This document shows, piece by piece, positions 1,493-30,316 of a stretch of DNA of 64,000 nucleotides (its first letter is position 1; each line of letters begins with the position of its first letter). The stretch spans positions 3,156,524 through 3,220,523 of the forward strand of contig NZ_CM001484.1 in the NCBI RefSeq assembly GCF_000243395.2. Reading direction: 5' to 3'. Source of the stretch: Saccharomonospora glauca K62. GTDB taxonomy: Bacteria > Actinomycetota > Actinomycetes > Mycobacteriales > Pseudonocardiaceae. The notes under the pieces were generated by a model, which saw nothing but the letters and a program-made list of their open reading frames with translations, had not been told where the DNA came from and ran no database searches. The translations under genes were made by a program, and so were the position numbers.

Positions 1493-2839
1493 TCACGGGG
1501 TCTCGGCCCCGGTCCCCACCGGCGTCGGGTGGGTTCGGGGGAAGCTGGCGCGGACACGGTACCCGCCGGTGCGCCTCGGGCCCGTCTCCAGCTCCCCGCC
1601 GTGCACGGCCACGCGCTCACGCATGCCCACCAGGCCGAGACCGCTTCCCTGCGGGCGCCCCGGCCCCGACGGACCCCGACCGTCGTCGGTGATCTCCACC
1701 TCCACGCTCGTGTCGAGGTAACGCAACCTCACGTCCGCGGAATGGGCCGCGGCATGCTTGACGATGTTCGTCAACGCCTCTTGCACGATGCGGTAGATCG
1801 ACAACGCGACGCCCTCCGACACCGGATACGGTTCGCCGTAGACGGCGAACGACACGTCGAGGGAAGCGGAACGCGTGCGTTCCACCAGGGCGGGAAGGTC
1901 GTCCAAGCCGGGAGATGCCGTGTGGGACGACTCGGTCGTGTTCTCCTCGGTGTCTCCGGGAGGCTCCGCACGCAGCACGCCGAGCAGTCCTCGTAGCTCC
2001 CCGATCGCCGTGCGCGCGGTCTCCTCCACCGTGTCCAGCGCGGTGCGCGCCAGTTCCCGGTCGGAGTCGATCACCCGGCGGGCGGCGCCGGCCTGGATGC
2101 CCATGACCGACACGTGGTGGGCCACGACATCGTGCAGTTCCCGAGCGATCCGGAGCCGCTCGGCCACGATGGCGCCCCTGGTGTTCTCCTCCTGGGACCG
2201 CCGCAGTTGCTCCGCGCGGTACTCCAGCTCCGCCTGCCGCCGCGCCGACAGCCATGCCAGCTCGCCGAAGAAGTAGGCCGCCAGGAAGAACACCACGTTG
2301 AACGCGAGTTTGTACAGCACGGCGGCCAGCACCGGGTTGAGCGGACCACTCGCGCCCGGAAACTCGGGGGCCGGGTGCAGCAGCAGTTCGACGATGCCCA
2401 ACCCGAGCCAGGCGAACATCACCACGATGACACCGATGCGCGCCCAGCGCGCCACGGCCCTGTTGCGTCCCCACGCGCCCGTGCTGTAGATGGCGAGGAA
2501 CAAGGCGACGGACGGCACGAAGTTGTCACCGATCTGGCGCGCCTGGACGACGATGAACAGCAGACCCACCGTGAGGAGCGTCACCAGCGGGTAGCGTCGC
2601 CGCACCGCCAACGGCACGGTGACGGCGACTCCCAGCAGAAGCTGTTCGCCCAGCGACGGGGCCCGCCCGAAAGCCAGCACCCCCATGCTGTTGACCACGA
2701 CGATCGTGAACACCGCCCCGACGATCACGGCCAGGGCCACGAGCACGTCGTTGCGCTGCTGCTTCGGCGTGGGAGGAGGGCGTCGCCACTCCTGCCAGAA
2801 TGGTTCTTCGTCCGGATTCCGTCTCGCCACGCGCGTCAA
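1493..2839 (-). CDS. NarL-type sensor histidine kinase
   Basis: 448 residues. The N-terminal half has several hydrophobic segments (about residues 30-190), a linker coiled coil with QAELEYRAEQL, then a HisKA_3 dimerisation and phosphoacceptor motif (RIARELHDVVAHHVS, about residues 230-245) and a HATPase_c domain with N-box (EALTNIVKHA) and G boxes (DDGRG, GSGLGLVGMRER). It autophosphorylates on His and passes the phosphate to the adjacent regulator. The frame opens with TTG; a GTG three codons later (2830) is an equally possible start. The signal sensed cannot be read from the sequence. Confidence 0.93.
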   Translation of the reverse strand: MTRVARRNPDEEPFWQEWRRPPPTPKQQRNDVLVALAVIVGAVFTIVVVNSMGVLAFGRAPSLGEQLLLGVAVTVPLAVRRRYPLVTLLTVGLLFIVVQARQIGDNFVPSVALFLAIYSTGAWGRNRAVARWARIGVIVVMFAWLGLGIVELLLHPAPEFPGASGPLNPVLAAVLYKLAFNVVFFLAAYFFGELAWLSARRQAELEYRAEQLRRSQEENTRGAIVAERLRIARELHDVVAHHVSVMGIQAGAARRVIDSDRELARTALDTVEETARTAIGELRGLLGVLRAEPPGDTEENTTESSHTASPGLDDLPALVERTRSASLDVSFAVYGEPYPVSEGVALSIYRIVQEALTNIVKHAAAHSADVRLRYLDTSVEVEITDDGRGPSGPGRPQGSGLGLVGMRERVAVHGGELETGPRRTGGYRVRASFPRTHPTPVGTGAETP

Positions 2840-2926
2840 CGTAACAGGACGAACGACGCGGTTCGCCGTCGCCGGAGCACCGGGGCACCCCGTCGGACAC
2901 GGGAGTCGGGGGTCACGAAGCCCCGT

Positions 2927-3430
2927 TCACGCCCGCACGACGCCGGCGACGACGGCCACGAGCAGCCCCACCACGAGACACCAGATCGCCGGGGTCACGC
3001 TCCGGAACTTCCGATGGGCCACCACGCTCACCGCCCAGGTCTGTTCCGCCAACGCCCGCAACAGCCGATCCGGGTCGGACAACAAGTCGCGGGAGGCGGT
3101 CACGTAGTCGTCGGGATTCGGATAGCGGCGGGCGATGGTGTCGAAGTACAGCAACGCACCCGTCGCCTCGCTCGAAGCCGGAGCCGACAGCCGCGGCGAG
3201 AAAACCCGCAACGCCAGCACGATGGCCACACAGATGAACCCCAGCGAGGTCAGCAACAGCGCGACCCGCCAGGGCCAGCGGGCCCACTCCCCGTGCGCGG
3301 GCAATGCCGAGAGCACCACGCCCGCGAGCACCCCGCTCGCCGTGATCACCACCCCGGCCTTCGTGTCGGCGACCTTGGTCCAGTCGTTCGCGATCGTCAG
3401 TGTCTTCCACCCATCCTCGGTGTCGGTCAC
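2927..3430 (-). CDS. PycTM-like (DUF5706-type) small membrane protein, Pycsar effector homologue
   Basis: 167 residues, GTG start with GGGAG nine bases upstream. An amphipathic N-terminal segment with NDWTKVADTKAGVVITASG leads into a first membrane helix (about 27-45). A second helix (about 53-77), a soluble middle and a C-terminal helix (about 143-167) follow. The WxKxADtKAg motif followed by a two-helix plus terminal-helix layout is what I know from the PycTM effector family of Pycsar anti-phage systems, whose members disrupt the membrane after sensing cyclic cCMP/cUMP. No nucleotide cyclase gene is found beside it here, so a defence role is not shown. It is divergent from the membrane-anchored gene at 3809. 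Confidence 0.7.
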   Translation of the reverse strand: MTDTEDGWKTLTIANDWTKVADTKAGVVITASGVLAGVVLSALPAHGEWARWPWRVALLLTSLGFICVAIVLALRVFSPRLSAPASSEATGALLYFDTIARRYPNPDDYVTASRDLLSDPDRLLRALAEQTWAVSVVAHRKFRSVTPAIWCLVVGLLVAVVAGVVRA

Positions 3431-3808
3431 ACCCGAAGTCTCCCGACCCGCACTCCCACGGCCAACCCCGACGCCACAGACGATCGCGAGATTGCTCTGA
3501 ACGAGCGGAATTCACGCAAAGTGGTCGCCTTGAAACCCGCCGTACCGGTACGCCACACAGTGTGTGTCGTCGGACCATGCCTCCACGCGGTTTCGCCGCT
3601 CTCCTCGGCCCCCGGCACTGGGCAGCACTTCTCGCGTCCGGGCGCCTGAGCATTGGCCCCTCACGCCGCCGGTCCGGCGGCGGATAAACCAGCACCGTCC
3701 ACCGGAAGCTTCCGAGCACGGCTCAGCCTTCGGTGAACGCCCCGGCTTCCCGGCGCGAGGACGGCTCCCGCCCGTCCCTCCTCCCCCTCCCGAAAAAGGA
3801 CCTCAGTG
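3431..3808. promoter_or_regulatory. Divergent intergenic region
   Basis: 378 bases between two divergent membrane-protein genes. No convincing coding frame is seen. It must hold promoters for both neighbours. The plus-strand gene has an AAAAAGGA ribosome-binding site at 3793-3800; I saw no clear operator or terminator. Confidence 0.5.
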
Positions 3809-4879
3809 ATGAACATTTCCGCAGTCCACATCGCAACCGGGGTGGGCGCGGTAGTCTCCGCGCTCGTCGTCGTCCTCGGACTGATCTTCGACTGGGAGAC
3901 CTGGGTGTGGCTCCCCCTGGCGGCCGTCCTGGGTCCGACGACGATGATCGTGCTGCGGTCGATGCTGCTGGACCGGGACACCGCACCGACACTTCCCGCA
4001 CAGCATTCCCCCACTCCGGCTCCCCCGGCACCGCCGCAGCCCGTCGCCAAGCGCGCGACCATCTCCCAGCTCCCGCTGCCCACGAGAGAGAAGGACTACC
4101 GTTTCCTGTTCTCCGCCACCGTGTCGTGGCTGCACGATCCCCAGGTCCCCGCGATGGGCGCCGATCTGGGTGCCCTCGCCAAACAGAACGTCATCGCGCG
4201 AGCCATCGAGCGGACCCGGCAGTACGGGCCCGACGAGTACGCCCTCGCGACCGTCGAGCTCAACGCGGTCCTGTCCGAACGGATCACGCTCGCCAACGGC
4301 CACTACGTCTGGGCCTCCGAGGTGACCCTGACGCTGTCCGACGCGGACGCCAAGCGTCTGGAACGCATCAGCGAACTGCGCAAGCAGCAAGCACTCTGGG
4401 AACACGAACGCGCGCACGAGATCGGCGTCCGCGACTATCTCGGCAACGAGGTACTCCGCGATCCCGGCTCGGCGGTCACGTGGTGGTTCGCCCGCAACCT
4501 CGACAAACCCGACGCGATCACCATCACCGTGCGCGAGATCGACAACCTGCGCAGGCTGACTCGCGCCGCGCACGAGACCGGGGAGCCCGCCCCGGCGACA
4601 CCGCTCACCCTGCTCTCGCCCGAGCCACCGACCCCCGTGGAATTCAATGGCGGTGTCGATCCGGCGCGACGCCTCGCGACCGCCGTGGACCAGCTCTGTA
4701 AGAACACCGAACCCGAGGTCCGCACCACGCTCTACCGCCGGTTGGCGGACCTGTTGCGGGTCCACGGGTTCGCCGAGGCCGCCGAGGCGTTGCGTTCTCC
4801 CGGCGATACCACCGAGTCCGAAGAGGCCTCGACGGAACACGGGACCGACGAGCCCGGTTCGGCGCCGGTTCCGTCCTGA
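3809..4879 (+). CDS. Membrane-anchored protein of unknown function
   Basis: 356 residues from ATG 3809, which sits eight bases after AAAAAGGA; a GTG at 3806 is closer than usual. Two adjacent membrane helices (about residues 7-26 and 33-50) are followed by a proline-rich linker and a large soluble domain. The domain begins LPLPTREKDYRFLFSA and contains a charged, helix-rich stretch (KRLERISELRKQQALWEHER, about residues 190-210). The last 90 residues are acidic and low in complexity. The order of N-terminal anchor, beta-rich part and charged helix recalls SPFH/band-7 proteins, but I could not recognise the family. It is divergent to the PycTM-like gene, which may or may not be functional pairing. 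Confidence 0.75.
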   Translation: MNISAVHIATGVGAVVSALVVVLGLIFDWETWVWLPLAAVLGPTTMIVLRSMLLDRDTAPTLPAQHSPTPAPPAPPQPVAKRATISQLPLPTREKDYRFLFSATVSWLHDPQVPAMGADLGALAKQNVIARAIERTRQYGPDEYALATVELNAVLSERITLANGHYVWASEVTLTLSDADAKRLERISELRKQQALWEHERAHEIGVRDYLGNEVLRDPGSAVTWWFARNLDKPDAITITVREIDNLRRLTRAAHETGEPAPATPLTLLSPEPPTPVEFNGGVDPARRLATAVDQLCKNTEPEVRTTLYRRLADLLRVHGFAEAAEALRSPGDTTESEEASTEHGTDEPGSAPVPS

Positions 4880-5098
4880 ACGGACAACGCTTCCCCGGCA
4901 CAGCGGAAAGACCTGGGTAAGGGACGGTCGCCGGGCTTCGGGCTCGCAAGCGCTCACGGCCCGCTCGGCGTCCGGTACCCACCAAACCGGCGACTACTTT
5001 CCGTAGTTACAACGATCGTCGGTGTCGCCGCAGAGTGAACCCATGTCACCGTCCACACGACCCAGTTCGACGCTGCGCACAGAAACGAGGTCGGGGAC

Positions 5099-5869
5099 AT
5101 GCGTAATCGGACCGCACGCCTGCTCGCGGGCTCATTCGTGGCCCTCGTCGTGGGTGTGGGCGCGCCCGCGGTGGCCGAAACTCCGTACGACGACTACTAC
5201 TCCGGAACCGAAGGGCTCACCGGAGAGGCCTTGAAAGACGCGCTGCACGACATCATCAGCGACGCCGAACAACTGACCTACGACGAGATCTGGGACGGGA
5301 TCAAGGCCACCGACGAGGACCCGGCGAACCCGAACAACGTGATCCTGCTCTACAGCGGTGAGTCTCGTTCCAAGAACGACAACGGCGGCAACGTCGGCGA
5401 CTGGAACCGGGAGCACGTGTGGGCCAAGTCCCACGGCGACTTCGGCACCTCGGGCCCCGGCGCCGACCTGCACCACCTGCGCCCCACCGACGTGCAGGTG
5501 AACAGCATCCGGGGCAACAAGGACTTCGACAACGGGGGCAGTCCCGTCGCCGGCGCGCCGGACAACTACACCGACGACGACTCGTTCGAACCACGTGACG
5601 AGGTCAAGGGCGACATCGCCCGGATGCTGTTCTACATGGCCGTCCGCTACGAGGGCACGGACTCCTACCCCGACCTGGAGCTCAACGACCAGGTGAACAA
5701 CGGCTCGGCGCCGTATCACGGCAAGCTGTCCGTGCTGCTGGAATGGCACGAGGCCGACCCCGTGGACGACTTCGAACGCCATCGCAACGAGGTCATCTAC
5801 AGCCAGTTCCAGCACAACCGCAACCCCTTCATCGACCACCCCGAGTGGGTCGCCGAGATCTGGGGCTGA
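5099..5869 (+). CDS. Secreted endonuclease I family nuclease
   Basis: 256 residues. It has a clear Sec signal peptide (basic MRNRTAR, hydrophobic core, cleavage expected after PAVAE). The mature part matches the endonuclease I/NucM (His-Me finger) family: WNREHVWAKSHG holds the catalytic His, followed by DLHHLRPTD, VNSIRGNKDF, and the C-terminal RNEVIYSQFQHNRNPFIDHP with the Asn/Asp typical of the family. The expected activity is metal-dependent, nonspecific cutting of DNA or RNA outside the cell, for nutrition or clearance of extracellular DNA. The gene stands alone and converges on the polysaccharide operon 14 bases away. Confidence 0.93.
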   Translation: MRNRTARLLAGSFVALVVGVGAPAVAETPYDDYYSGTEGLTGEALKDALHDIISDAEQLTYDEIWDGIKATDEDPANPNNVILLYSGESRSKNDNGGNVGDWNREHVWAKSHGDFGTSGPGADLHHLRPTDVQVNSIRGNKDFDNGGSPVAGAPDNYTDDDSFEPRDEVKGDIARMLFYMAVRYEGTDSYPDLELNDQVNNGSAPYHGKLSVLLEWHEADPVDDFERHRNEVIYSQFQHNRNPFIDHPEWVAEIWG

Positions 5870-19118: not shown

Positions 19119-19152
19119 GAAAAACCCGGCCTTCCCACCGCGACCGGCCGGG
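19119..19152 (-). terminator. Intrinsic terminator of the betaine/SAM-cycle operon
   Basis: Minus strand: a seven-base GC stem (ggccggg at 19146-19152 on plus pairing with cccggcc at 19125-19131) followed directly by five T. A second, longer hairpin (19157-19187, arms gcggtg/ggcggc) lies between it and the metF stop. Together they mark the operon end. Confidence 0.7.
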
Positions 19153-19216
19153 GCCCGCGGTGAGGCGGCGCTCGGCCGCCGCACCGCGGACGCGAGGTCT
19201 TACGCGGGCCCTTCGG

Positions 19217-20125
19217 TCACGAACCGACGGCCGCGGGCTCGGCGCGCGGCGAACGTAGTCCGAGCCGGTCCACCAGTTCCCTCGTGGCCTTCGACCGGTT
19301 GAAGGTGTAGAAGTGCAGCTCCGGCACTCCCTCGGCGAGGAGCCGTTCGCACAGCTCCGTGATGGTGTCGAGACCTTCGGCCCGGAACGCCTTCGGGTCG
19401 TCGACAAGCGGTTCGAGGCGCTCGGACAGCCATCGAGGAGGAGTCGCACCGGACAATTCAACGGTCTTGCGCCACGTCCGGGGAGTGGTGAGCGGCATGA
19501 TGCCGGGCAGGATCAGCGCGTCACTGCCCGCCGCCGCCACCCGATCCCGCAATCTCAGGAAATCCTCGGCCTCGAAGAACAATTGCGCGATCGCGAAATC
19601 GGCCCCCGCCTTCAGTTTCCGCACGAGGTACTTGGTGTCCGTCTCCAGGTCGACGGAACGCGGATGACCGTAGGGGAACGCCGAAACCCCCACACAGAAG
19701 TCCCCCAGCTCGCGCACGAGTCGGACGAGTTCCTCGGCGTAGGTCAGGCCCTGCGGGTGCGGCACCCACTCCCCCATCGGATCACCCGGCGGGTCGCCGC
19801 GTAAGGCGAGAATGTTGCGGACCCCCACCGCGGCGAAGTGTCCGATGACGTTACGCAGTTCCGCGACCGAATGATTGACGGCCGTCAGATGCGCCATCGG
19901 CACCAGCGTGGTGTCGGTGGCGACACGGGCGATATTGCGAATGGTTCCCTCACGACTGGACCCACCCGCTCCGTAGGTGATGGATATGTACGCGGGGTCA
20001 AGCGGCTCCAGCTCACGGATCGACCGCCACAGCACGGCCTCGTCCGCCTCATCACGCGGCGGGAAGAACTCCACGGAGAACGTGGGACACCGCGCGCTCG
20101 CCAGCCGGTCGACAACCCTCCGCAC
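19217..20125 (-). CDS. metF: Methylenetetrahydrofolate reductase
   Basis: 302 residues from GTG 20125, six bases after GGGAG. The FAD-binding TIM barrel shows FSVEFFPPRDEAD (with the catalytic Glu), YISITYGAGGSSREGT, HLTAVNHS, NILALRGDPP and FFEAEDFL. It reduces methylene-tetrahydrofolate to methyl-tetrahydrofolate, the methyl donor for MetH. It is the last gene of the six-gene operon, 76 bases after ahcY, and closes the methyl supply for the glycine methyltransferase at the operon head. Confidence 0.95.
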   Translation of the reverse strand: MRRVVDRLASARCPTFSVEFFPPRDEADEAVLWRSIRELEPLDPAYISITYGAGGSSREGTIRNIARVATDTTLVPMAHLTAVNHSVAELRNVIGHFAAVGVRNILALRGDPPGDPMGEWVPHPQGLTYAEELVRLVRELGDFCVGVSAFPYGHPRSVDLETDTKYLVRKLKAGADFAIAQLFFEAEDFLRLRDRVAAAGSDALILPGIMPLTTPRTWRKTVELSGATPPRWLSERLEPLVDDPKAFRAEGLDTITELCERLLAEGVPELHFYTFNRSKATRELVDRLGLRSPRAEPAAVGS

Positions 20126-20201
20126 GATCAACTCCCTTCGGGCGACGCGGAACCGCCGCCGAGCCGCCCCGAACGGCGGCGGTTCCGCGAGGCGGGCACC
20201 G

Positions 20202-21659
<1,458 letters not shown>

Positions 21660-21695
21660 GGTGTCCTTTCTTCGTCGTGGGAGTGAGCCCACTGG

Positions 21696-24600
21696 TCAGG
21701 TGTTGAAATACTTGGCCTCGGGGTGGTGGGCCACGATCGCATCCGTTGCCTGCTCCGGATGCAGCTGGAACTCCTCGGACAGCGTCACACCGATGCGTTC
21801 GGCGTCCAACAGCTCCATGATCTTCGTTCGGTCTTCGAGGTTCGGACAAGCACCGTAACCGAGGGAGAACCGCGCGCCGCGATAGCCCAGCTTGAAGAAC
21901 TGCTGCACGTCCTCCGGGTCCTCGGCGGCCACCGGCGTGCCCGACGGGAAGCGCAGCTCCTGCCGGATACGACGGTGCCAGTACTCGGCCAACGCCTCCG
22001 TGAGCTGCACGCCGAGTCCGTGGACCTCCAGGTAGTCCCGGTAGGAGTTGCGAGCGAACAACTCGTTCGCGTAGTCGGCGATGGGCTGCCCCATCGTCAC
22101 GAGCTGCAGAGGCAGCACGTCGACCTGCCCCGTGCTCTCGACCTTCTCCCGTGGCCGGAAGAAGTCCGCCAGACACAACCTGCGGTCACGCCGCTGCCGG
22201 GGGAAGCGGAACCGCAGCCGCTCCAGGGCGTCCGGTTCGTCCTTCTCCACCACGACGAGGTCGTTGCCCTCGGAATAACACGGGAAGTAGCCGTACACGA
22301 CCGCGGCGTGCGCGAGCACCCCGCGAGTGGACAGCTCGTCGATCCAGGCCCGCAACCTCGGCCTGCCCTCGGTCTCCACGAGCTCCTCGTACGAAGGCCC
22401 CTCGCCCTTCCGTGCCCCGCGCAGCCCCCACTGCCCGAGGAACGTCGCCCGCTCGTCGAGCAACGCCAGGTAGTCCGCCACGGCGATGCCTTTGACGATC
22501 TTGGAGCCCCAGAACGGCGGCGTCGGCACGGGAACATCGGGATCGACGTCCGAACGGGTGGTGTCGTTCGGGTCGGCTTCGGGCCCCTGCTCGGCCCGGC
22601 GCTTCTCGGCGATCCGCAGCGACCGCTCACGGCGGGCCTTGCGTTCGGCCTTCTTCGCCCGCTCGGCCTCGTCCTCCTCGGGAGTCTCGCCACGCTTGAT
22701 GGCCATCACACGGTCCATCAACTTCAGGCCCTCGAAGGCGTCCTTGGCGTAGCGGACGTCGCCTTCGTAGATCTCGTCGAGGTCGTTCTCGACGTACGTG
22801 CGGGTCAGCGCGGCTCCGCCGAGCAGCACCGGGTACTTCTTGGCGACCCCGCGGGAGTTCATCTCCTGCAGGTTCTCCTTCATCACCACCGTGGACTTCA
22901 CCAGCAGACCCGACATGCCGATGACGTCGACCCGGTGTTTCTCCGCCGCCTCCAGGATCGCGTTGATGGGCTGCTTGATGCCGATGTTCACGACGTCGTA
23001 GCCGTTGTTCGACACGATGATGTCGACGAGGTTCTTGCCGATGTCGTGGACGTCGCCCTTCACCGTGGCCAGCAGGAGCTTGCCCTTGCCGCCGGCGTCG
23101 GTCTTCTCCATGTGCGGTTCGAGGTAGGCCACCGCGGTCTTCATCACCTCGGCCGAGGCGAGCACGAACGGAAGCTGCATCTGACCGGAACCGAACAGGT
23201 CACCGACCACCTTCATGCCGGCAAGCAGGTTCTCGTTGATGATGTCGATCGGGCTCTTCTCCCGCATGGCCGCGTCGAGATCGGCCTCAAGACCGTTGAC
23301 CTCGCCCTCGACGATGCGCTTCTCCAACCGCTCGAACAACGGCAGCTTCGCGAGCTCCTCGGCACGGGAGGCACGCGCCGAGGAGGCGGTCTTGCCCTCG
23401 AACAGCTCCATGAGCCGCTGCAGCGGGTCGTAGCCGTCCCGCCGGCGGTCGTAGACGAGGTCGAGCGCCACCTGCCGGGCCTCGTCGTCGATCTTGTTCA
23501 TCGGCAGGATCTTCGACGAGTTCAGGATCGCGGAGTCGAGCCCCGCCTGCCGACACTCGTGCAGGAACACCGAGTTCAGCACCTGACGCGCCGCCGGGTT
23601 CAGCCCGAACGAGACGTTGGACAGCCCCAGGGTGGTCAACACGTCCGGGTGACGCTTCTTCAGCTCGCGGATGGCCTCGATCGTCTCCAGGGCGTCCCTG
23701 CGGACCTCCTCCTGACCGGTGGTGATCGGGAAGACCAGGCAGTCGATGATGATCGACGACTTCGCCAGGCCCCAGTTGGTGGTCAGGTCCTCGATGGCGC
23801 GCTCGGCGACCCGGAGCTTCCAGTCGGCGGTGCGGGCCTGCCCCTCCTCGTCGATGCAGGTGACGACCACGGCGGCACCGTGCTCGACGGCGAGTTCCAT
23901 GATCCGCTGGTAGCGGCTCCCCGGCCCGGTGCCGTCCTCGTAGTTCACCGAGTTGATCGCGCACCGCCCGCCGAGGTGTTCGAGACCGGTGCGCACGACC
24001 TCGGGCTCGGTGGAGTCGACCATGATCGGCAACGTCGACGCCGTGGCGAGCCGGGAGGCCAGCTCGGCCATGTCACGCGTGCCGTCCCGACCCACGTAGT
24101 CGACGCACAGGTCGAGCACGTGCGCGCCCTCGCGGGTCTGGGCCTTGGCGATCTCGACACAGTCGTCGTAGCGCTCGTCGAGCATCGCCTCACGGAACTT
24201 CTTCGAGCCGTTCGCGTTGGTGCGCTCCCCCACGTTGAGGATCGACGCGTCCTGCTCGAACGGCACCGGCTGGTAGACCGACGACAACGACGGCTGGTGC
24301 CGCGGCCGCCGCTCCTTCCCCGGCAGCGACGACACCGCCTCCACCACGGCGCGCAGGTGCTCCGGCGTCGTACCGCAGCACCCGCCCACCAAGCGGGCCC
24401 CGAAGTCCGTGACGAACGTGGCCAGCGCCTCGGCCAGCTCGTCGGGGCGCAACGGATACACCGCGCCGTCGGGGCCGAGCTCGGGCAGCCCGGCGTTCGG
24501 CATCACCGAGATCGGCACGCGGGCGTGCTCGGACAGCACCCGCAGGTGCTCACTCATCTCGGTGGGCCCGGTGGCACAGTTCATGCCGATCATGTCGATG

Positions 24601-25250
24601 CCCAGCGGTTCCAGCGCCGTGAGCGCCGCGCCGATCTCCGAGCCGACGAGCATCGTCCCGGTCTGTTCCACCGTCACCTGAGCGATGATCGGCACCCGGC
24701 GGCCGGCTCGCTCCATCGCCCGCTTCGCGCCGACGACCGCCGCCTTGGTCTGCAGCAGGTCCTGCGACGTCTCCACGAGCACGGCGTCCACCCCGCCGTC
24801 GAGCATCCCCAGCGCGTTCTCGACGTAGGCGTCCCGCAACACGGCGTAGGGGGCGTGGCCGAGCGTGGGCAGCTTCGTCCCCGGCCCCATCGACCCCAGG
24901 ACGAACCGCGGCCGTTCGGGCGTCGAGTACTCGTCGGCGCACCGCCGCGCCAGGACCGTGCCCTTCTCGGCCAGTTCCCGGATCCGGTCGAGGATGCCGT
25001 ACTCACCGAAGTTGCCGTAGTTCGTCCCGAACGTGTTGGTCTCGATGGCGTCGCAGCCGACCTCAAGGAAGCTGCGATGCACCGCCGACACCACGTCGGG
25101 GCGGGTGTCGTTGAGGATCTCGTTGCACCCTTCCAACTGGGCGAAGTCGTCGAGCGACAGGTCGAAGCCCTGGAGGGCGGTACCCATACCGCCGTCCGCG
25201 ACGAGAATCCGCTGGCCCAACTCGGCGAGAAACCGACTGTCCATGTTCAC
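21696..25250 (-). CDS. metH: Cobalamin-dependent methionine synthase
   Basis: 1184 residues, full length with all four modules. The homocysteine domain has zinc cysteines (MNCATGP, VGGCCGTTPEH). The pterin-binding barrel contains NVGERTNANGSKKF. The cobalamin domain has DVHDIGKN with the Co-ligating His, about residue 750. The reactivation domain ends with RGARFSLGYGACPNLEDR. A charged insertion (about 870-920, KAERKARRERSLR) separates the last two modules. GTG 25250 overlaps the adoK stop (GTGA); ATG 25244 is the alternative start. It makes methionine from homocysteine and methyl-tetrahydrofolate for the next round of S-adenosylmethionine synthesis. Confidence 0.97.
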   Translation of the reverse strand: MNMDSRFLAELGQRILVADGGMGTALQGFDLSLDDFAQLEGCNEILNDTRPDVVSAVHRSFLEVGCDAIETNTFGTNYGNFGEYGILDRIRELAEKGTVLARRCADEYSTPERPRFVLGSMGPGTKLPTLGHAPYAVLRDAYVENALGMLDGGVDAVLVETSQDLLQTKAAVVGAKRAMERAGRRVPIIAQVTVEQTGTMLVGSEIGAALTALEPLGIDMIGMNCATGPTEMSEHLRVLSEHARVPISVMPNAGLPELGPDGAVYPLRPDELAEALATFVTDFGARLVGGCCGTTPEHLRAVVEAVSSLPGKERRPRHQPSLSSVYQPVPFEQDASILNVGERTNANGSKKFREAMLDERYDDCVEIAKAQTREGAHVLDLCVDYVGRDGTRDMAELASRLATASTLPIMVDSTEPEVVRTGLEHLGGRCAINSVNYEDGTGPGSRYQRIMELAVEHGAAVVVTCIDEEGQARTADWKLRVAERAIEDLTTNWGLAKSSIIIDCLVFPITTGQEEVRRDALETIEAIRELKKRHPDVLTTLGLSNVSFGLNPAARQVLNSVFLHECRQAGLDSAILNSSKILPMNKIDDEARQVALDLVYDRRRDGYDPLQRLMELFEGKTASSARASRAEELAKLPLFERLEKRIVEGEVNGLEADLDAAMREKSPIDIINENLLAGMKVVGDLFGSGQMQLPFVLASAEVMKTAVAYLEPHMEKTDAGGKGKLLLATVKGDVHDIGKNLVDIIVSNNGYDVVNIGIKQPINAILEAAEKHRVDVIGMSGLLVKSTVVMKENLQEMNSRGVAKKYPVLLGGAALTRTYVENDLDEIYEGDVRYAKDAFEGLKLMDRVMAIKRGETPEEDEAERAKKAERKARRERSLRIAEKRRAEQGPEADPNDTTRSDVDPDVPVPTPPFWGSKIVKGIAVADYLALLDERATFLGQWGLRGARKGEGPSYEELVETEGRPRLRAWIDELSTRGVLAHAAVVYGYFPCYSEGNDLVVVEKDEPDALERLRFRFPRQRRDRRLCLADFFRPREKVESTGQVDVLPLQLVTMGQPIADYANELFARNSYRDYLEVHGLGVQLTEALAEYWHRRIRQELRFPSGTPVAAEDPEDVQQFFKLGYRGARFSLGYGACPNLEDRTKIMELLDAERIGVTLSEEFQLHPEQATDAIVAHHPEAKYFNT

Positions 25251-26224
25251 ACCCGCAGCTTGGATTCGATCTCGGCCGCGGCGTCATTGCCGTAGGTCGT
25301 GGCCACCCTCTTGGAAAACTCAGCCCGATCCAGGGTGTATTCCTGCGTGCCGACGGTCTCCAGAACGATGGCAGCCAGAGTACACCCGACCTGCGCGGAC
25401 CGCTCCAGGTTGAGTTTCGCGGCCAGGCCCCACAAAAACCCGGCCCGGAAGGCGTCGCCCACCCCCGTGGGGTCCGCCTCGTCGGTCACCCGCACGGCCG
25501 GCACGCTCAGGGGCTCGGTGTTCCGCGACTCGACCCTCACCCCGTCGGGTCCGTAGGTCTTCACCCAGTAGCCGACCCGGTCGAGGACCTCGGCCTCGGA
25601 CCAGCCCGTCTCCTTCAACAGCAGGGACGTCTCGTACTCATTGGTGAACAGGTAGGAGGCGCCGTCCACCAAGGTGCGGATCTCGTCCCCCGCCATGCGC
25701 GCGAGCTGCTGGGACGGGTCGGCGGCGAAGGGAATGCCCAAGGTGCGACACTCCTCGGTGTGGCGCACCATCGCCACCGGGTCGTTCGGAGCGATGATCA
25801 CCAGGTCGAACGCTCCCACGCGGTCGGCCACGGCCCGGAGCTCGATGTTCCTGGCCTCCTCCATCGCCCCGGCGTAGAACGACGCGATCTGCGCCTGGTC
25901 CTGATCGGTCGTGCAGAGGAACCGCGACGTGTGCTTGGTCTGCGACACGTGCACCGACCTGGTGTCGACACCGTGCCGTTCCAGCCACGAACGGTAGTCG
26001 TCGAAGTCTCGGCCGACCGCGCCCACCAGGATCGGCCTCATCCCGAGGCAGCCCAGACCGAACGCGATATTGGCCGCCACCCCGCCTCTACGGATGTCCA
26101 GCGTGTCGACGAGAAACGACAGGGACACCTTGTCGAGCTGATCGGCCACGAACTGGTCGGCGAATTTTCCGGGAAAGACCATCAGGTGGTCGGTGGCGAT
26201 GGAGCCGGTCACCGCTATGCGCAT
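25247..26224 (-). CDS. adoK: Adenosine kinase, PfkB family (mycobacterial AdoK type)
   Basis: 325 residues. The N-terminus VTGSIATDHLMVFPGKF and blocks VSLSFLVDTLDIRRGGVAANIAFGLG, AQIASFYAGAMEEARNIEL and FAADPSQQLARM closely match what I remember of Mycobacterium tuberculosis AdoK. The PfkB active site is DPTGVGDAFRAGF with the catalytic Asp. It phosphorylates adenosine released by AhcY, pulling the hydrolase reaction forward and salvaging the purine. It sits between metK and metH, overlapping metH by four bases. A ribokinase function is the alternative but fits the context less well. Confidence 0.93.
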   Translation of the reverse strand: MRIAVTGSIATDHLMVFPGKFADQFVADQLDKVSLSFLVDTLDIRRGGVAANIAFGLGCLGMRPILVGAVGRDFDDYRSWLERHGVDTRSVHVSQTKHTSRFLCTTDQDQAQIASFYAGAMEEARNIELRAVADRVGAFDLVIIAPNDPVAMVRHTEECRTLGIPFAADPSQQLARMAGDEIRTLVDGASYLFTNEYETSLLLKETGWSEAEVLDRVGYWVKTYGPDGVRVESRNTEPLSVPAVRVTDEADPTGVGDAFRAGFLWGLAAKLNLERSAQVGCTLAAIVLETVGTQEYTLDRAEFSKRVATTYGNDAAAEIESKLRV

Positions 26225-26281
26225 GCAAACACACTCCTCGTGGGGGTGTCGTGGACCTCGGGAACTGGGGACGACGGGCGG

Positions 26282-26320
26282 GCGTGGCGGGCGACCGATG
26301 CCACCGGCCGTCCGCCACGC
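26282..26320 (-). other. Stem-loop between metK and adoK
   Basis: Nine-base perfect arms (gcgtggcgg at 26282-26290, ccgccacgc at 26312-26320) in the longest spacer of the operon (136 bases). No T run follows on the minus strand, so it is more likely an mRNA-stability or processing element, or a partial attenuator, than a terminator. Confidence 0.45.
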
Positions 26321-26360
26321 GACGGGAACGGTCCGACGAAGGTCGAGCGTCCTTCGACGC

Positions 26361-27560
26361 TCACGCCCTCGCGGCGTCCTTCAACGCGGACGCCCGGTCG
26401 GTCCTCTCCCACGGCAGGTCGAGATCGGTACGACCGAAGTGCCCGTAGGCGGCCGTCGGCGCATAGATCGGCCGCAACAGGTCCAGATCACGAATGATCG
26501 CCGCCGGACGCAGGTCGAACACCTCGGTGATCGCCGACTGGATCTTGGCCGGATCCACCTTCTCCGTACCGAAGGTCTCCACGAACAACCCCACCGGCGC
26601 CGCCTTGCCGATCGCGTACGCCACCTGAATCTCGGCTCGCTCGGCCAACCCGGCGGCGACGATGTTCTTGGCCACCCACCGCATCGCGTACGCCGCCGAC
26701 CGGTCCACCTTCGACGGGTCCTTACCCGAGAACGCACCACCACCGTGCCGCGCCATCCCACCGTAGGTGTCCACGATGATCTTGCGACCCGTCAACCCCG
26801 CATCCCCCATCGGACCACCCACCACGAACCGACCCGTGGGGTTGATCAGTGTCCTGGGCTCGGTGGCGTCCAGGCCCAGCGACTCGATCTCCGGGGTGAT
26901 GACGTGCTGGATCAGGTCACGGGCCAGCATCTCGTCGAGGTCGATGCCGTCGGCGTGCTGGCTGGAGATCACCACGGTGTCCAACCGCACCGGGCGATCC
27001 CCCTCGTACTCGATGGTCACCTGCGTCTTGCCGTCCGGCCGCAGGTACGGCACCGTGCCGTCCTTGCGCACCGCCGTCAACCGCCGCGACAACCGATGCG
27101 CCAACGCGATGGGCAACGGCATCAGCTCCGGCGTGTCCGAGCACGCGTACCCGAACATCAACCCCTGGTCCCCGGCCCCCTGCCGGTCCAACTCGTCGAG
27201 CGCGTTTTCCAACCGGCTCTCGTAGGCGGCGTCCACACCCTGGGCGATGTCGGGGGACTGCGAACCGATGGCCACGTTCACCCCGCACGAGGCCCCGTCG
27301 AACCCCTTGGCCGACGAGTCGTACCCGATCTCCAGGATCGTGTCCCTCACCAGCGTGGGCACGTCCACGTACGCCTCGGTGGTCACCTCACCGACGACGT
27401 GCACCTGGCCGGTGGTGATGAGCGACTCCACCGCGACCCGACTGCTGGGATCGGCGGCCAACAGCGCGTCCAGGATGGTGTCGCTGATGGCGTCACACAT
27501 CTTGTCGGGGTGGCCCTCCGTGACGGACTCACTGGTGAACAGCCTTCGATTAGCAGTCAC
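26361..27560 (-). CDS. metK: S-adenosylmethionine synthetase
   Basis: 399 residues, GTG start with GAGGATG upstream. Signature motifs: [19 protein letters not shown] (ATP binding), [12 protein letters not shown], and the phosphate loop [19 protein letters not shown]. It condenses methionine and ATP to S-adenosylmethionine in the cytoplasm. It lies 60 bases after the betaine methyltransferase, so donor synthesis is co-expressed with its main consumer. I saw no other metK in the window, so this copy could also serve general metabolism. Confidence 0.97.
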
Positions 27561-27620
27561 TATGCATCCTCGTCTCTCGTCGCTGACAATTCGCCGTTCG
27601 CGTCTTCCGGAGTTCCACCT

Positions 27621-29330
27621 CTAGGCGCGCGCGTGGAATATGCCCCAAGCGAGGTTACCGGCCCGTCCACCGTCGACCCAGTGCTTGAGACCGATCTTCA
27701 TGCGCGTGAGGTAGGTCTCGCTGACCTTGGAGGAAATCTCCTCGTGCCGCCGCTGTGCCTCCTCCAAAACTCGCTGGTAGTGAACGGCCAGTTGCTCTGT
27801 GTGATCCTCGAACTCGACTACGGACAAACCGAGTTTGCTCAGTTCTCTGCGATAGAAACCCGGCGAACCGAGACTGTCCAGGTGCAGTCGGTCGAAGATC
27901 GGCTGCAACACCGTCCGGTCGCAGTCGTCCGACGCCATGGGATCGGTGAAGACGAACTCCCCGCCCGGCCGCAGCACCCGCGCGACCTCCTCCAGCACAC
28001 GGACCCGGTCGCCCCCGTGCAGCATCGCGTCCTGGGACCACACGACGTCGAACGCGTCGTCCTCGAACGGCAGGTCCTCGAAGGAGCCGTTCACCACCTC
28101 GACGAGTTCCGACAGCCCCTGCTCCGCGGTGAAGCGACGATTGCGCTCGTTCTCCACCTCGCTGAGGTTGAGGCAGGTGACCCGACAACCGAACGTCTTC
28201 GCGAGATACCGGGCCGCGCCGCCGTAACCGGAACCGATGTCGAGCACACGGGTCGAGGGCGTGAACCCCACCTTGGACGCCATGTGCTCGACGGTGCGCC
28301 TGCTCGCCGTCGCGATGTCCTCGTGCTCGTCGGCGTAGAGACCGATGTGAATGTCCTCGCCGCCCCAGATGGAGTAGTAGAAGTTGTCGGCGTCGTCGGA
28401 GTTGTAGTAGTCGCGCGCGACGGTGACCGCCGCCGAGTCTCGCCTCCGGCCGGTGTTCACGGGGTCGTAGCTCTTCTCCGCCACGTGGATGAGGAAGTCG
28501 GGGTCCTGCGCCCGGAACGTCTCCTGGAAGTCACCGTAGGTCTCCACCCGCTGGAACCCCACTTCGCGCAGCAGCCTGCGCAGGTAGTCCCTGCGCAGCG
28601 GGAACATGTTGAGGTGGTACTGCGAGTTGTCCGGGAAGCGGTAGCGGAACCGGGCGAGTCCCTCGTCGACGTACTCGGGCTCCGCCGAGACCTCCTCACC
28701 GCAGTAGTAGTACGTGTGCCTGCCCGAGAACCCGCCGTCGAGGATGGCGTCGTAGTTGCGTTGGTCGATGACCAGGATGCCGTCGGGCTTCAACACGGCG
28801 TAGAACTCGGCGAGCGCCTTGCGACGGTCACGCTCGGAGAACAGGTGCGTGAACGAGTTGCCGAGGCAGACCACCGCGTCGAACTGTCCCGACACGTCCC
28901 TGCTGAGCCAGCGCCAGTCGGCGTGCACGACACGCAGGATGTGACCCCCGTGGTTGAGGCCGTTCTCGAACGCCTTGGCCAGCATCTCCGCGCTGCCGTC
29001 CACGCTGACGGTGTCGAACCCCTCCTCAAGGAGCCGAACGGAGTGGAACCCCGTACCGGTGGCCACGTCGAGCACCGACTTCACGCCGTAGGACCGAAGC
29101 AGGTCGACGAAGAAACCACCCTCACTCTCGTAGCGCTTCTCCCAGTCGATGAGTTCGTCCCACTTCTCGACGAAGCCCCGGACGTACTCACTGGTGTAGT
29201 GGTCGGTGTCGCGAACGGTGAGCGGGTCACTCCCGAACCCCTGCGCGGGGTGCGCGTCGGTCTCGGGTCGTCCGCCGTTCCCGGTCTCCGCCCGTCCCAC
29301 CCGGACGGGGGCGGACCTCGAACCTTTCAT
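27621..29330 (-). CDS. Fused glycine/sarcosine and sarcosine/dimethylglycine N-methyltransferase
   Basis: 569 residues from ATG 29330, seven bases after AAGGA; a GTG one codon earlier is less well placed. Two class I methyltransferase domains: the first (about 40-290) has SAM motif VLDVATGTGFHS and resembles glycine/sarcosine methyltransferase. The second (about 305-565) has VLDIGSGYGGAARYL, the VWSQDAMLHG block and a sarcosine/dimethylglycine methyltransferase-type end. Together they methylate glycine three times to glycine betaine, using three S-adenosylmethionine. The fused form is known from the halophile Actinopolyspora halophila. First gene of the SAM-cycle operon; expression is probably osmotically regulated (inference). 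Confidence 0.95.
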   Translation of the reverse strand: MKGSRSAPVRVGRAETGNGGRPETDAHPAQGFGSDPLTVRDTDHYTSEYVRGFVEKWDELIDWEKRYESEGGFFVDLLRSYGVKSVLDVATGTGFHSVRLLEEGFDTVSVDGSAEMLAKAFENGLNHGGHILRVVHADWRWLSRDVSGQFDAVVCLGNSFTHLFSERDRRKALAEFYAVLKPDGILVIDQRNYDAILDGGFSGRHTYYYCGEEVSAEPEYVDEGLARFRYRFPDNSQYHLNMFPLRRDYLRRLLREVGFQRVETYGDFQETFRAQDPDFLIHVAEKSYDPVNTGRRRDSAAVTVARDYYNSDDADNFYYSIWGGEDIHIGLYADEHEDIATASRRTVEHMASKVGFTPSTRVLDIGSGYGGAARYLAKTFGCRVTCLNLSEVENERNRRFTAEQGLSELVEVVNGSFEDLPFEDDAFDVVWSQDAMLHGGDRVRVLEEVARVLRPGGEFVFTDPMASDDCDRTVLQPIFDRLHLDSLGSPGFYRRELSKLGLSVVEFEDHTEQLAVHYQRVLEEAQRRHEEISSKVSETYLTRMKIGLKHWVDGGRAGNLAWGIFHARA

Positions 29331-30168
29331 CACACATTCCTTCCACGGTCGAGCACGGATTGTTTTTCGCGACGTTCCGTTGGCATTCCTCCTCAGCGTG
29401 GACGCACGTGGAAAAAATAATCACCGAATACATCGAGGGAACATATTGAAGGCGAACAACGCCATACCCCCGACACTACTTTTTCCAGGCGCACAACTCG
29501 GTCTCCCCGACAGCCGGTTTCCCCGACCCCGAAGCGACCGGGCCTGATTTCAACACATCGTTGATGATCTCCGCAATATGTCGCGGACCCACCTCGGGGC
29601 ACCCTCGCGACCATGACAATGGGTCTTTTGCGTGACCCGGATTCTCACCCGCCGTACAACCCGCCCCGGCGATGTCCGGAGTCAATTCACCCGGCACCGG
29701 CAAATGCGACGGGACGGAAGAGCACCGTCGAATACACTGGACAACCGTGGTCCGAGCCCCGCGCGGAGAACCTGTGTCATCACCACGACACCACCGCGAG
29801 GGCGAAACTGGGACCTCGGGAAACGGGGAACCACCGTTCACCCGAGCAGAGCAACGAGCCGAGGGGCAATCCACCGAAAAGACACTCTTCGTAATCGCTT
29901 GGAACGAAGGTATGACTTTGATCTTCCGTCGAGTTCGTGTCACATTCGGCAACTCGTTGCATCATGAACAACCCAGGTGTCGAGGCACGGCAATCCCCGC
30001 GCCGACGAACCGACACACTCGGACGACATCGACGATCCGTACCGCTACCGAAGCGTCCCGTGATCGACGGGAAATACAGTGTCGAAGACAACACACCGAA
30101 ACGGCGGAGCCCGCTTCTACGGAGAGCATCACGGGCCCCGAAAGAAACCGAAGCCACTCCCGAATTAA
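29331..30168. promoter_or_regulatory. Gene-poor stretch upstream of the betaine operon
   Basis: About 840 bases in which no open frame shows normal codon bias or a recognisable product. The part nearest the operon (29340-29480) is A/T-rich and should contain its promoter. An 18-codon minus-strand frame (29330-29386) ends in TGATG overlapping the methyltransferase ATG, but its AGGAGG is only one base from its ATG. I saw no match to a SAM or SAH riboswitch, judged by eye only. The rest may be degraded sequence. Confidence 0.4.
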
Positions 30169-30205
30169 GTGTCCCGGTGCTGCTGGGGGTTCAGCACCGG
30201 GACAC
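30169..30205 (-). terminator. Strong stem-loop at the end of the unknown/micro-ORF pair
   Basis: Perfect 14-base arms (gtgtcccggtgctg at 30169-30182, its complement at 30192-30205) with a nine-base loop. On the minus strand it is followed by TTAATT, a short T-containing tail. The stop codon of the micro-ORF lies inside the structure. Likely transcription terminator, though the T run is weak. Confidence 0.65.
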
Positions 30206-30316
30206 CCTCGCTGCCGATGCACCCTGGGGAGGGATACAGGCGCTCGGCCGGCCGACAGAAGAACGACAGTTCGTCGGCTTCGCCCCGAAGCATACGCGGG
30301 AGCCCAGTACTTGCAT
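30191..30316 (-). CDS. Cysteine-containing micro-ORF, 41 residues
   Basis: ATG at 30316 with an excellent ribosome-binding site (GGAGGTGG six bases upstream). The product begins MQVLGSRVCFGAKPTNC and contains four Cys (residues 9, 17, 27, 41), the last being the C-terminal residue; no membrane helix. It starts 25 bases after the stop of the unknown gene at 30342 and ends within a strong hairpin, the layout of a real last gene of an operon. No family recognised. Possibilities are a metal- or disulfide-binding peptide or a modified-peptide precursor, but no modification enzyme is nearby. The frame could also be chance. Confidence 0.45.
   Translation of the reverse strand: MQVLGSRVCFGAKPTNCRSSVGRPSACIPPQGASAARVSRC

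Follow-up and report, generated by a model that had tools for sequence, protein, structure and literature searches.

The window analysed here, a 64,000-nucleotide stretch of the Saccharomonospora glauca K62 genome, carries six genes on one strand (minus) for betaine synthesis and S-adenosylmethionine (SAM) metabolism: a fused GSMT-SDMT methyltransferase gene, metK, adoK, metH, ahcY, and metF. This arrangement very probably represents a betaine operon with a built-in SAM-regeneration cassette, in a lineage that, like several others, has lost its housekeeping ahcY and retains the operon copy as its only S-adenosylhomocysteine (SAH) hydrolase. The features of the locus are listed in transcription order.

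29630..29650, minus strand: bipartite element GGGTGA-N9-TCACGC, conserved in relatives and lying some 300 bases ahead of the fusion start
29446..29595, minus strand: leader region, from alignments; degenerate compared with relatives, whose TAGATT reads GAGGTG here
27621..29333, minus strand: fused GSMT-SDMT, start GTG, or ATG at 29330; frame of 570 amino acids
residues about 31-289 of the fusion, minus strand: GSMT half (NF051855, PDB 5gwx)
residues about 298-569 of the fusion, minus strand: SDMT-like half (NF041675 under its cut-off, PDB 2o57)
26361..27560, minus strand: metK, methionine adenosyltransferase (MAT; TIGR01034)
25247..26224, minus strand: adoK, adenosine kinase of the PfkB family (PF00294 and PDB adenosine kinases)
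21696..25250, minus strand: metH, cobalamin-dependent methionine synthase (MS; TIGR02082), sole full-length copy found in the genome
20202..21659, minus strand: ahcY, SAH hydrolase (SAHase; TIGR00936), sole copy found in the genome
19217..20125, minus strand: metF, methylenetetrahydrofolate reductase (MTHFR; PF02219), just below the TIGR00676 cut-off
19120..19212, minus strand: GC-rich inverted repeats and a five-T run, possible terminator (sequence, fold)

For ahcY the start chosen is the ATG after AAAGGA (the longest open frame starts at 21692), and for metF it is the GTG after GGGAG (longest frame, 20248). With these starts the spacers are 60 bases between the fusion and metK, 136 between metK and adoK, −4 between adoK and metH, 36 between metH and ahcY, and 76 between ahcY and metF. 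Both the six-gene order and the spacers agree exactly with those proposed in a first-pass annotation of this DNA.

Each operon product falls into an ordinary family in profile searches, as the first-pass annotation had supposed, and the activities given here are those predicted from these families. The first half of the fusion matches NF051855 over residues 31-289 with 474.7 bits, above the cut-off of 350, and PDB entry 5gwx (glycine sarcosine N-methyltransferase) at E 6.7e-120. The second half matches 2o57, a putative SDMT, at E 7.3e-74, and NF041675 over residues 298-569 with 416.6 bits (E 6.6e-125); since this misses the curated SDMT cut-off of 550, it is named SDMT-like. MetK (TIGR01034, 548 bits), MetH (TIGR02082, 1496 bits), and AhcY (TIGR00936, 635 bits) match their families, while MetF passes the general PF02219 cut-off with 300 bits and misses that of TIGR00676 (289.9 vs 293.7). 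AdoK matches PF00294 and reaches no NCBIfam cut-off. Its best PDB matches are the adenosine kinase entries 4o1g and 2pkf, which we take to be mycobacterial, at E of about 1e-115 over residues 1-321. This full-length match to solved adenosine kinases makes the label adoK, assigned in the first pass, well founded.

The pathway proposed earlier, consisting of three methylations, SAH removal, and SAM rebuilding, follows from these gene families. The fusion would transfer three methyl groups from SAM onto glycine, and AhcY would split the SAH formed. The AhcY reaction is reversible, and removal of adenosine pulls it towards SAH splitting; by clearing adenosine, AdoK would drive this step in that direction. 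MetF and MetH would then re-methylate homocysteine, and MetK would rebuild SAM. The six genes are presumably co-transcribed.

The bundling itself, which the first-pass annotation had singled out as the notable point, is indeed present and includes adoK, but it is not new, such bundles having been published for Actinopolyspora halophila and two Rhodobacteraceae. In the available parts of Imhoff et al. 2020 (PMC7824335), Table 4 gives the A. halophila betaine cluster as fusedMT-MAT-o-MS-SAHase-MTHFR, with the same fused methyltransferase and the same order as in K62. The K62 operon shows two Actinopolyspora-type features, namely GSMT and SDMT halves in one gene and the order fusion-MAT-(gene)-MS-SAHase-MTHFR on one strand. 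In our own reading, the "o" in that listing is an unlabelled gene, its footnote there giving no explanation. In two Actinopolyspora loci (L163, L166), as in K62, adoK stands at the position of the "o". Those parts of the account mention no adenosine kinase, nor do they deal with copy number, upstream elements, or housekeeping ahcY loss. Table 2 of the same source lists fusedMT-MTHFR-MS-MAT-SAHase for Roseivivax roseus and Roseovarius nitratireducens; these clusters share with K62 the fused methyltransferase and four of the five cycle genes and differ in gene order and in that no adenosine kinase is listed. Halorhodospira (GMT-DMT-MAT-SAHase-MTHFR; PMC7824335) and Methanohalophilus (sams-sahh-gsmt-sdmt, for which joint regulation was already suggested; Lai and Lai 2011, PMC3176816) likewise place betaine methyltransferases beside SAM synthesis and SAH removal, but in the portions of these sources at hand GSMT and SDMT are separate genes and neither MetH nor an adenosine kinase is listed. 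Within the open-licence papers searched, a set that gives weak evidence of absence, the available text held nothing on housekeeping ahcY loss, the upstream element, or the leader. These three features, described below, thus go beyond the published accounts found.

The distribution of the cassette was surveyed in 100 genomes drawn from Pseudonocardiaceae in the wide sense. The fusion occurs in one piece in 44 of them, split over two contigs in one, and as separate adjoining halves in two. Loci compared were 37 survey neighbourhoods, the best 80 of 579 named matches, and the window. The upstream sequence was sufficient in 117, and 101 of these, the window included, are unique by that sequence. 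Among the 101, metK-adoK-metH-ahcY follows the fusion in 43, of which 19 also have metF, and metK-adoK-ahcY follows it in two. Ten show metK or metK-adoK-metH before the contig or locus ends. Cycle genes are absent behind the fusion in 36, and absent before an early locus end in ten more. Carriers of the cassette include Saccharomonospora, Prauserella, Saccharopolyspora, Tamaricihabitans, and Haloechinothrix and, beyond the family, Actinopolyspora (Actinopolysporaceae) and Jiangella and Phytoactinopolyspora (Jiangellaceae). The cassette is widespread in the family and extends to Actinopolysporaceae and Jiangellaceae. It was found in none of the Streptomyces, Nocardiopsis, or Actinomadura loci compared, a few of which end early; there the fusion stands alone.

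As each enzyme belongs to an ordinary family, the gene order could be chance or a neutral cluster of genes without joint function. This is highly improbable, because the order is kept across many genera and, to judge from the loci compared, is conserved beyond chance. Most operon copies of metH form one group; the operon of genome G003 (L057) holds a far-related MetH, 32% identical to that of the window, in the same place, so the slot has been kept while the gene lineage changed.

The dependence of K62 on this operon was assessed from its genome (4.56 Mb, two contigs, 99.97% complete). A genome search found ahcY in the operon only, two further matches being short and far below the cut-off, and metH in full length only in the operon. 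The first-pass annotation had held that its reading would be refuted by a second full set of met genes elsewhere, carrying general methyl metabolism while this one is silent. No second full set was found: K62 has second metK and adoK genes and a metE-type gene, but no second ahcY or full-length metH.

The same pattern recurs among relatives. An intact operon ahcY is present in 26 surveyed genomes, three further operons cut by a contig end inside ahcY being left out. In 14 of the 26 it is the sole copy, and the other 12 carry a second ahcY. The housekeeping ahcY of relatives stands before tmk, followed by mtrA-mtrB; the flanks were identified as thymidylate kinase and a response regulator with a HAMP histidine kinase, a pair we take to be mtrA-mtrB. 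On the other side of ahcY lies a conserved frame; neither of its strands matches a Pfam family. Among 20 second or only ahcY copies inspected in relatives, tmk follows 17, and 14 of the 17 are also flanked by the conserved frame. In 13 of the 14 single-ahcY genomes the mtrAB locus was inspected, and in all 13 both flanks are present and ahcY is absent. The gap between the conserved frame and tmk is 101-331 bases at these empty sites, compared with 1562-5650 in 14 loci with ahcY. A search of the 13 sites for ahcY remnants, with a query frame beginning about 100 codons before ahcY, gave matches at E below 1 that are confined to query codons 1-120 (one, in L230, reaches codon 120) and later ones at E of at least 1.8.

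The history of the site was followed on a tmk-mtrA-mtrB tree of 30 genomes, three rows of which have under half of the columns. The tree requires five changes of ahcY state, at least four of them forced by starred branches, and bootstrap trees require 4-6. Since ahcY occupies the site in all five fusion-less genomes inspected (L209-L213), we infer that the direction of change was loss rather than gain. The housekeeping ahcY beside tmk-mtrA-mtrB would have been lost, leaving the operon ahcY as the only SAH hydrolase. SAH removal for all methylations would then depend on the osmolyte operon, and AhcY is presumably essential in K62. Genome G002 (L207) has its only ahcY in a metK-adoK-ahcY cluster that lies apart from the fusion and outside mtrAB; this is another route to loss of the ordinary ahcY locus.

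In the ahcY tree, operon-type copies are distinct from housekeeping-type ones, and the window's copy is of the operon type. In a careful tree of 51 of the 62 rows, the operon type comprises 30 rows (one duplicate and one cassette copy included) on a branch with support 100/98, with the window inside. Genome G079 (L073 and L205) carries operon-type ahcY twice with very short branches, the second copy outside both the operon and mtrAB, which points to recent duplication or gene conversion. The extra ahcY copy of G003 is likewise not at mtrAB.

Several observations weigh against this interpretation. The genome has a second metK (87% protein and 90% DNA identity), a second adoK (65% identity), a metE-type gene, an mmuM-type methyltransferase gene, and two weak MTHFR relatives with 38.8 and 33.7 bits, above the PF02219 cut-off of 24 and far under that of TIGR00676. 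With the metE-type and mmuM-type genes, methionine can be made without metH, and in view of all these genes elsewhere only SAH removal looks captive to the operon, no search having been aimed at a SAH nucleosidase elsewhere in the genome. The C-terminal half of the fusion lies below the curated SDMT cut-off. Three of the 20 second or only ahcY copies (L195, L205, L207) are not at the mtrAB site, and the count of changes on the tree cannot by itself tell loss from gain. Tamaricihabitans and Haloechinothrix have operon copies that group with the housekeeping type in the careful ahcY tree, where a single operon clade is barely rejected (p-AU 0.042); a quick tree of 58 of the 62 rows did not reject the topology that unites all operon copies and gave it the better score (p-AU 0.58). 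The history of ahcY is not one simple event. The housekeeping gene possibly moved into the operon in these two genera, as the careful tree suggests and the quick tree does not. Finally, the window and its sister retain only decayed forms of the promoter-like TAGATT and the leader seen in relatives, an argument against a single regulatory mechanism that has stayed unchanged.

Four of the 14 single-ahcY genomes (G062, G044, G077, G069) lack a strong MetE-domain match, their best E values being 1e-17 to 1e-35.

Upstream of the operon lies the element GGGTGA-N9-TCACGC. An exact match is present in 40 of the 57 unique loci that have metK after the fusion (43 when one mismatch is allowed), in none of 40 without metK and with at least 1.5 kb of downstream sequence available, and in one of four cut off by a contig end, counts made in the same sequences from which the element was defined. 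None of 40 shuffles of the respective stretch contained a match for any exact occurrence. As the loci are related, the split between loci with and without metK also follows phylogeny. The element is lacking in the operons of Jiangellaceae, Tamaricihabitans, Haloechinothrix, and Gandjariella, and a variant occurs in G003 and L128. In one clade it is mostly preceded by TTCACCC, so that TCACCC-A-GGGTGA forms a palindrome.

This distribution bears on the order in which the operon was assembled. A general metK-adoK-metH-ahcY operon may have come first, with the fusion inserted in front later. This would suit the metK-adoK-metH-ahcY order that one large genome (L262, G027) carries without the fusion, and the metK-adoK-ahcY order of G064 and, at a distance from the fusion gene, of G002. 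The main ahcY, however, stands at tmk-mtrA-mtrB in the five fusion-less genomes inspected, the Streptomyces, Nocardiopsis, and Actinomadura loci compared have the fusion with no cassette behind it, and the exact element occurs only with metK behind the fusion, bar the locus cut by a contig end. The reverse history is therefore unlikely. Arrays in the same family that stand away from a fusion (L262, L264, L207) contain metK-adoK-metH-ahcY or metK-adoK-ahcY with no adjoining betaine methyltransferase. In L262 (5862-13207, in an 11.8-Mb genome) a DHQS II gene and an AMP-binding gene follow, and this cassette may also serve a natural-product cluster.

When one mismatch was allowed, a search for the element in 12 congeneric genomes gave 65-90 matches per genome among the matches listed, compared with 10-32 for a backward control, an excess from which no regulon could be named. 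Known promoter types gave little guidance. The window has a SigB-like GGGTAT upstream of the fusion, but GGGTAT or GGGTAC occurs in only five of 38 upstream stretches and in differing places, and a SigB-type promoter was rejected. A sigma-70 scan gave no matches, which is uninformative in a GC-rich actinomycete, and no salt-response element could be shown upstream of the operon.

Between the element and the fusion lies the leader. That of the window alone folds with z −2.3. In the window's clade the leader is 95.6% paired, compared with 7-49% in slid controls; a structured leader was rejected there, covariation not exceeding shuffles (in 135 of 500 the paired percentage was at least as high). 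In the sister clade, Saccharopolyspora and Actinopolyspora, the result is different.

L065:4223-4422 and 19 related leaders: sister-clade structured 5' leader before the betaine operon (alignment A2, covariation)

For these 20 sequences RNAalifold predicts 50 pairs. In the 35 pairs counted, which form five helices, 97.6% of cells are paired and eight pairs show double changes; slid controls pair 30-48%, and none of 500 shuffles is as high, in a comparison made with a structure derived from this very alignment and with shuffles that take no account of relatedness. Single-sequence folds of three of these leaders gave z of −1.6, −3.1, and −0.6. At the Rfam gathering score nothing matched, either in the window or in eight related loci, seven of them of the sister clade; when E up to 10 was allowed, window positions 29300-30300 gave six matches with E of 2 to 9.3. 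The sister-clade leader is a candidate regulatory RNA.

Two accounts of expression can be weighed. The operon may be constantly expressed, with salt acting on the enzymes through ion activation and product inhibition and with no osmotic control of transcription, a serious alternative that we rate somewhat short of an even chance. A sole SAH hydrolase would have to be made at all salt levels, and the decay of TAGATT in the window and its sister fits this account. So does the archaeal GSMT as described in the available parts of Lai and Lai 2011 (PMC3176816), where sodium and potassium ions activate the enzyme and betaine and SAH inhibit it. On the other hand, the same parts report that added betaine lowered gsmt-sdmt transcripts in Methanohalophilus, and the conserved upstream element and the covarying sister-clade leader suggest some regulation. 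Osmotic control of the methyl cycle, as the first-pass annotation foresaw, is a prediction. In its broadest form it would mean that an osmolyte operon repeatedly took over a housekeeping role, with the housekeeping ahcY lost in at least four separate lineages of the family and the operon left as the only SAH hydrolase locus (in Tamaricihabitans and Haloechinothrix possibly because the housekeeping-type gene moved in) and general methylation then salt-regulated through GGGTGA-N9-TCACGC and the sister-clade leader RNA. This extension is tentative, and we hold it to be on the doubtful side.

If the operon copy is indeed the only SAH hydrolase, a gene for a general need, the clearing of SAH after every methylation, seems to survive only in a stress operon, and to have done so several times over. 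A basic cell function may now rest on a betaine operon. This raises the question, testable in culturable named actinomycetes, of whether the stress operon has become a housekeeping operon and whether salt alters all methylation. Because it extends to adenosine removal, the complete cassette also offers a natural template for engineering SAM regeneration.

The remaining observations concern the operon's boundaries and further copies of its genes. A terminator after metF, noted in the first pass, is plausible, not proven. GC-rich inverted repeats lie behind metF with five T after the last repeat, but the T run is paired within a longer outer stem in the best fold. This stretch folds at −63.9 kcal/mol (z −1.9), with six of 200 shuffles equally good, and a strict terminator scan found none 3' of metF, its loop limit being 8 and the loop read there having 14 bases. 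An internal promoter between metK and adoK was considered and rejected: the spacer varies from 52 to 363 bases among relatives with hardly any conservation past the ribosome-binding site, so no shared internal promoter shows. An open frame of 1075 amino acids on the plus strand (26193-29420), antisense to the fusion and metK, was taken as an artefact of GC-rich coding sequence.

Contigs break within or just before the operon metK, or within ahcY, in G038, G035, G095, G046, and G091, the pattern that a near-identical second copy elsewhere would produce. A Saccharopolyspora dendranthemae contig (L144:360-12541) carries two copies of the fusion with metK, oriented in opposite directions. Apart from the fusion, a second GSMT gene, single and with 67-71% identity, occurs in 12 genomes (G035, G063, G069, G005, G025, G091, G072, G046, G079, G012, G052, G033), with no adjoining SDMT half in three loci inspected (L082-L084). 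Lastly, on a contig of a Phycisphaerae metagenome-assembled genome (L190:5-1991), ahcY stands directly before a fused GSMT-SDMT gene 66% identical to that of the window.

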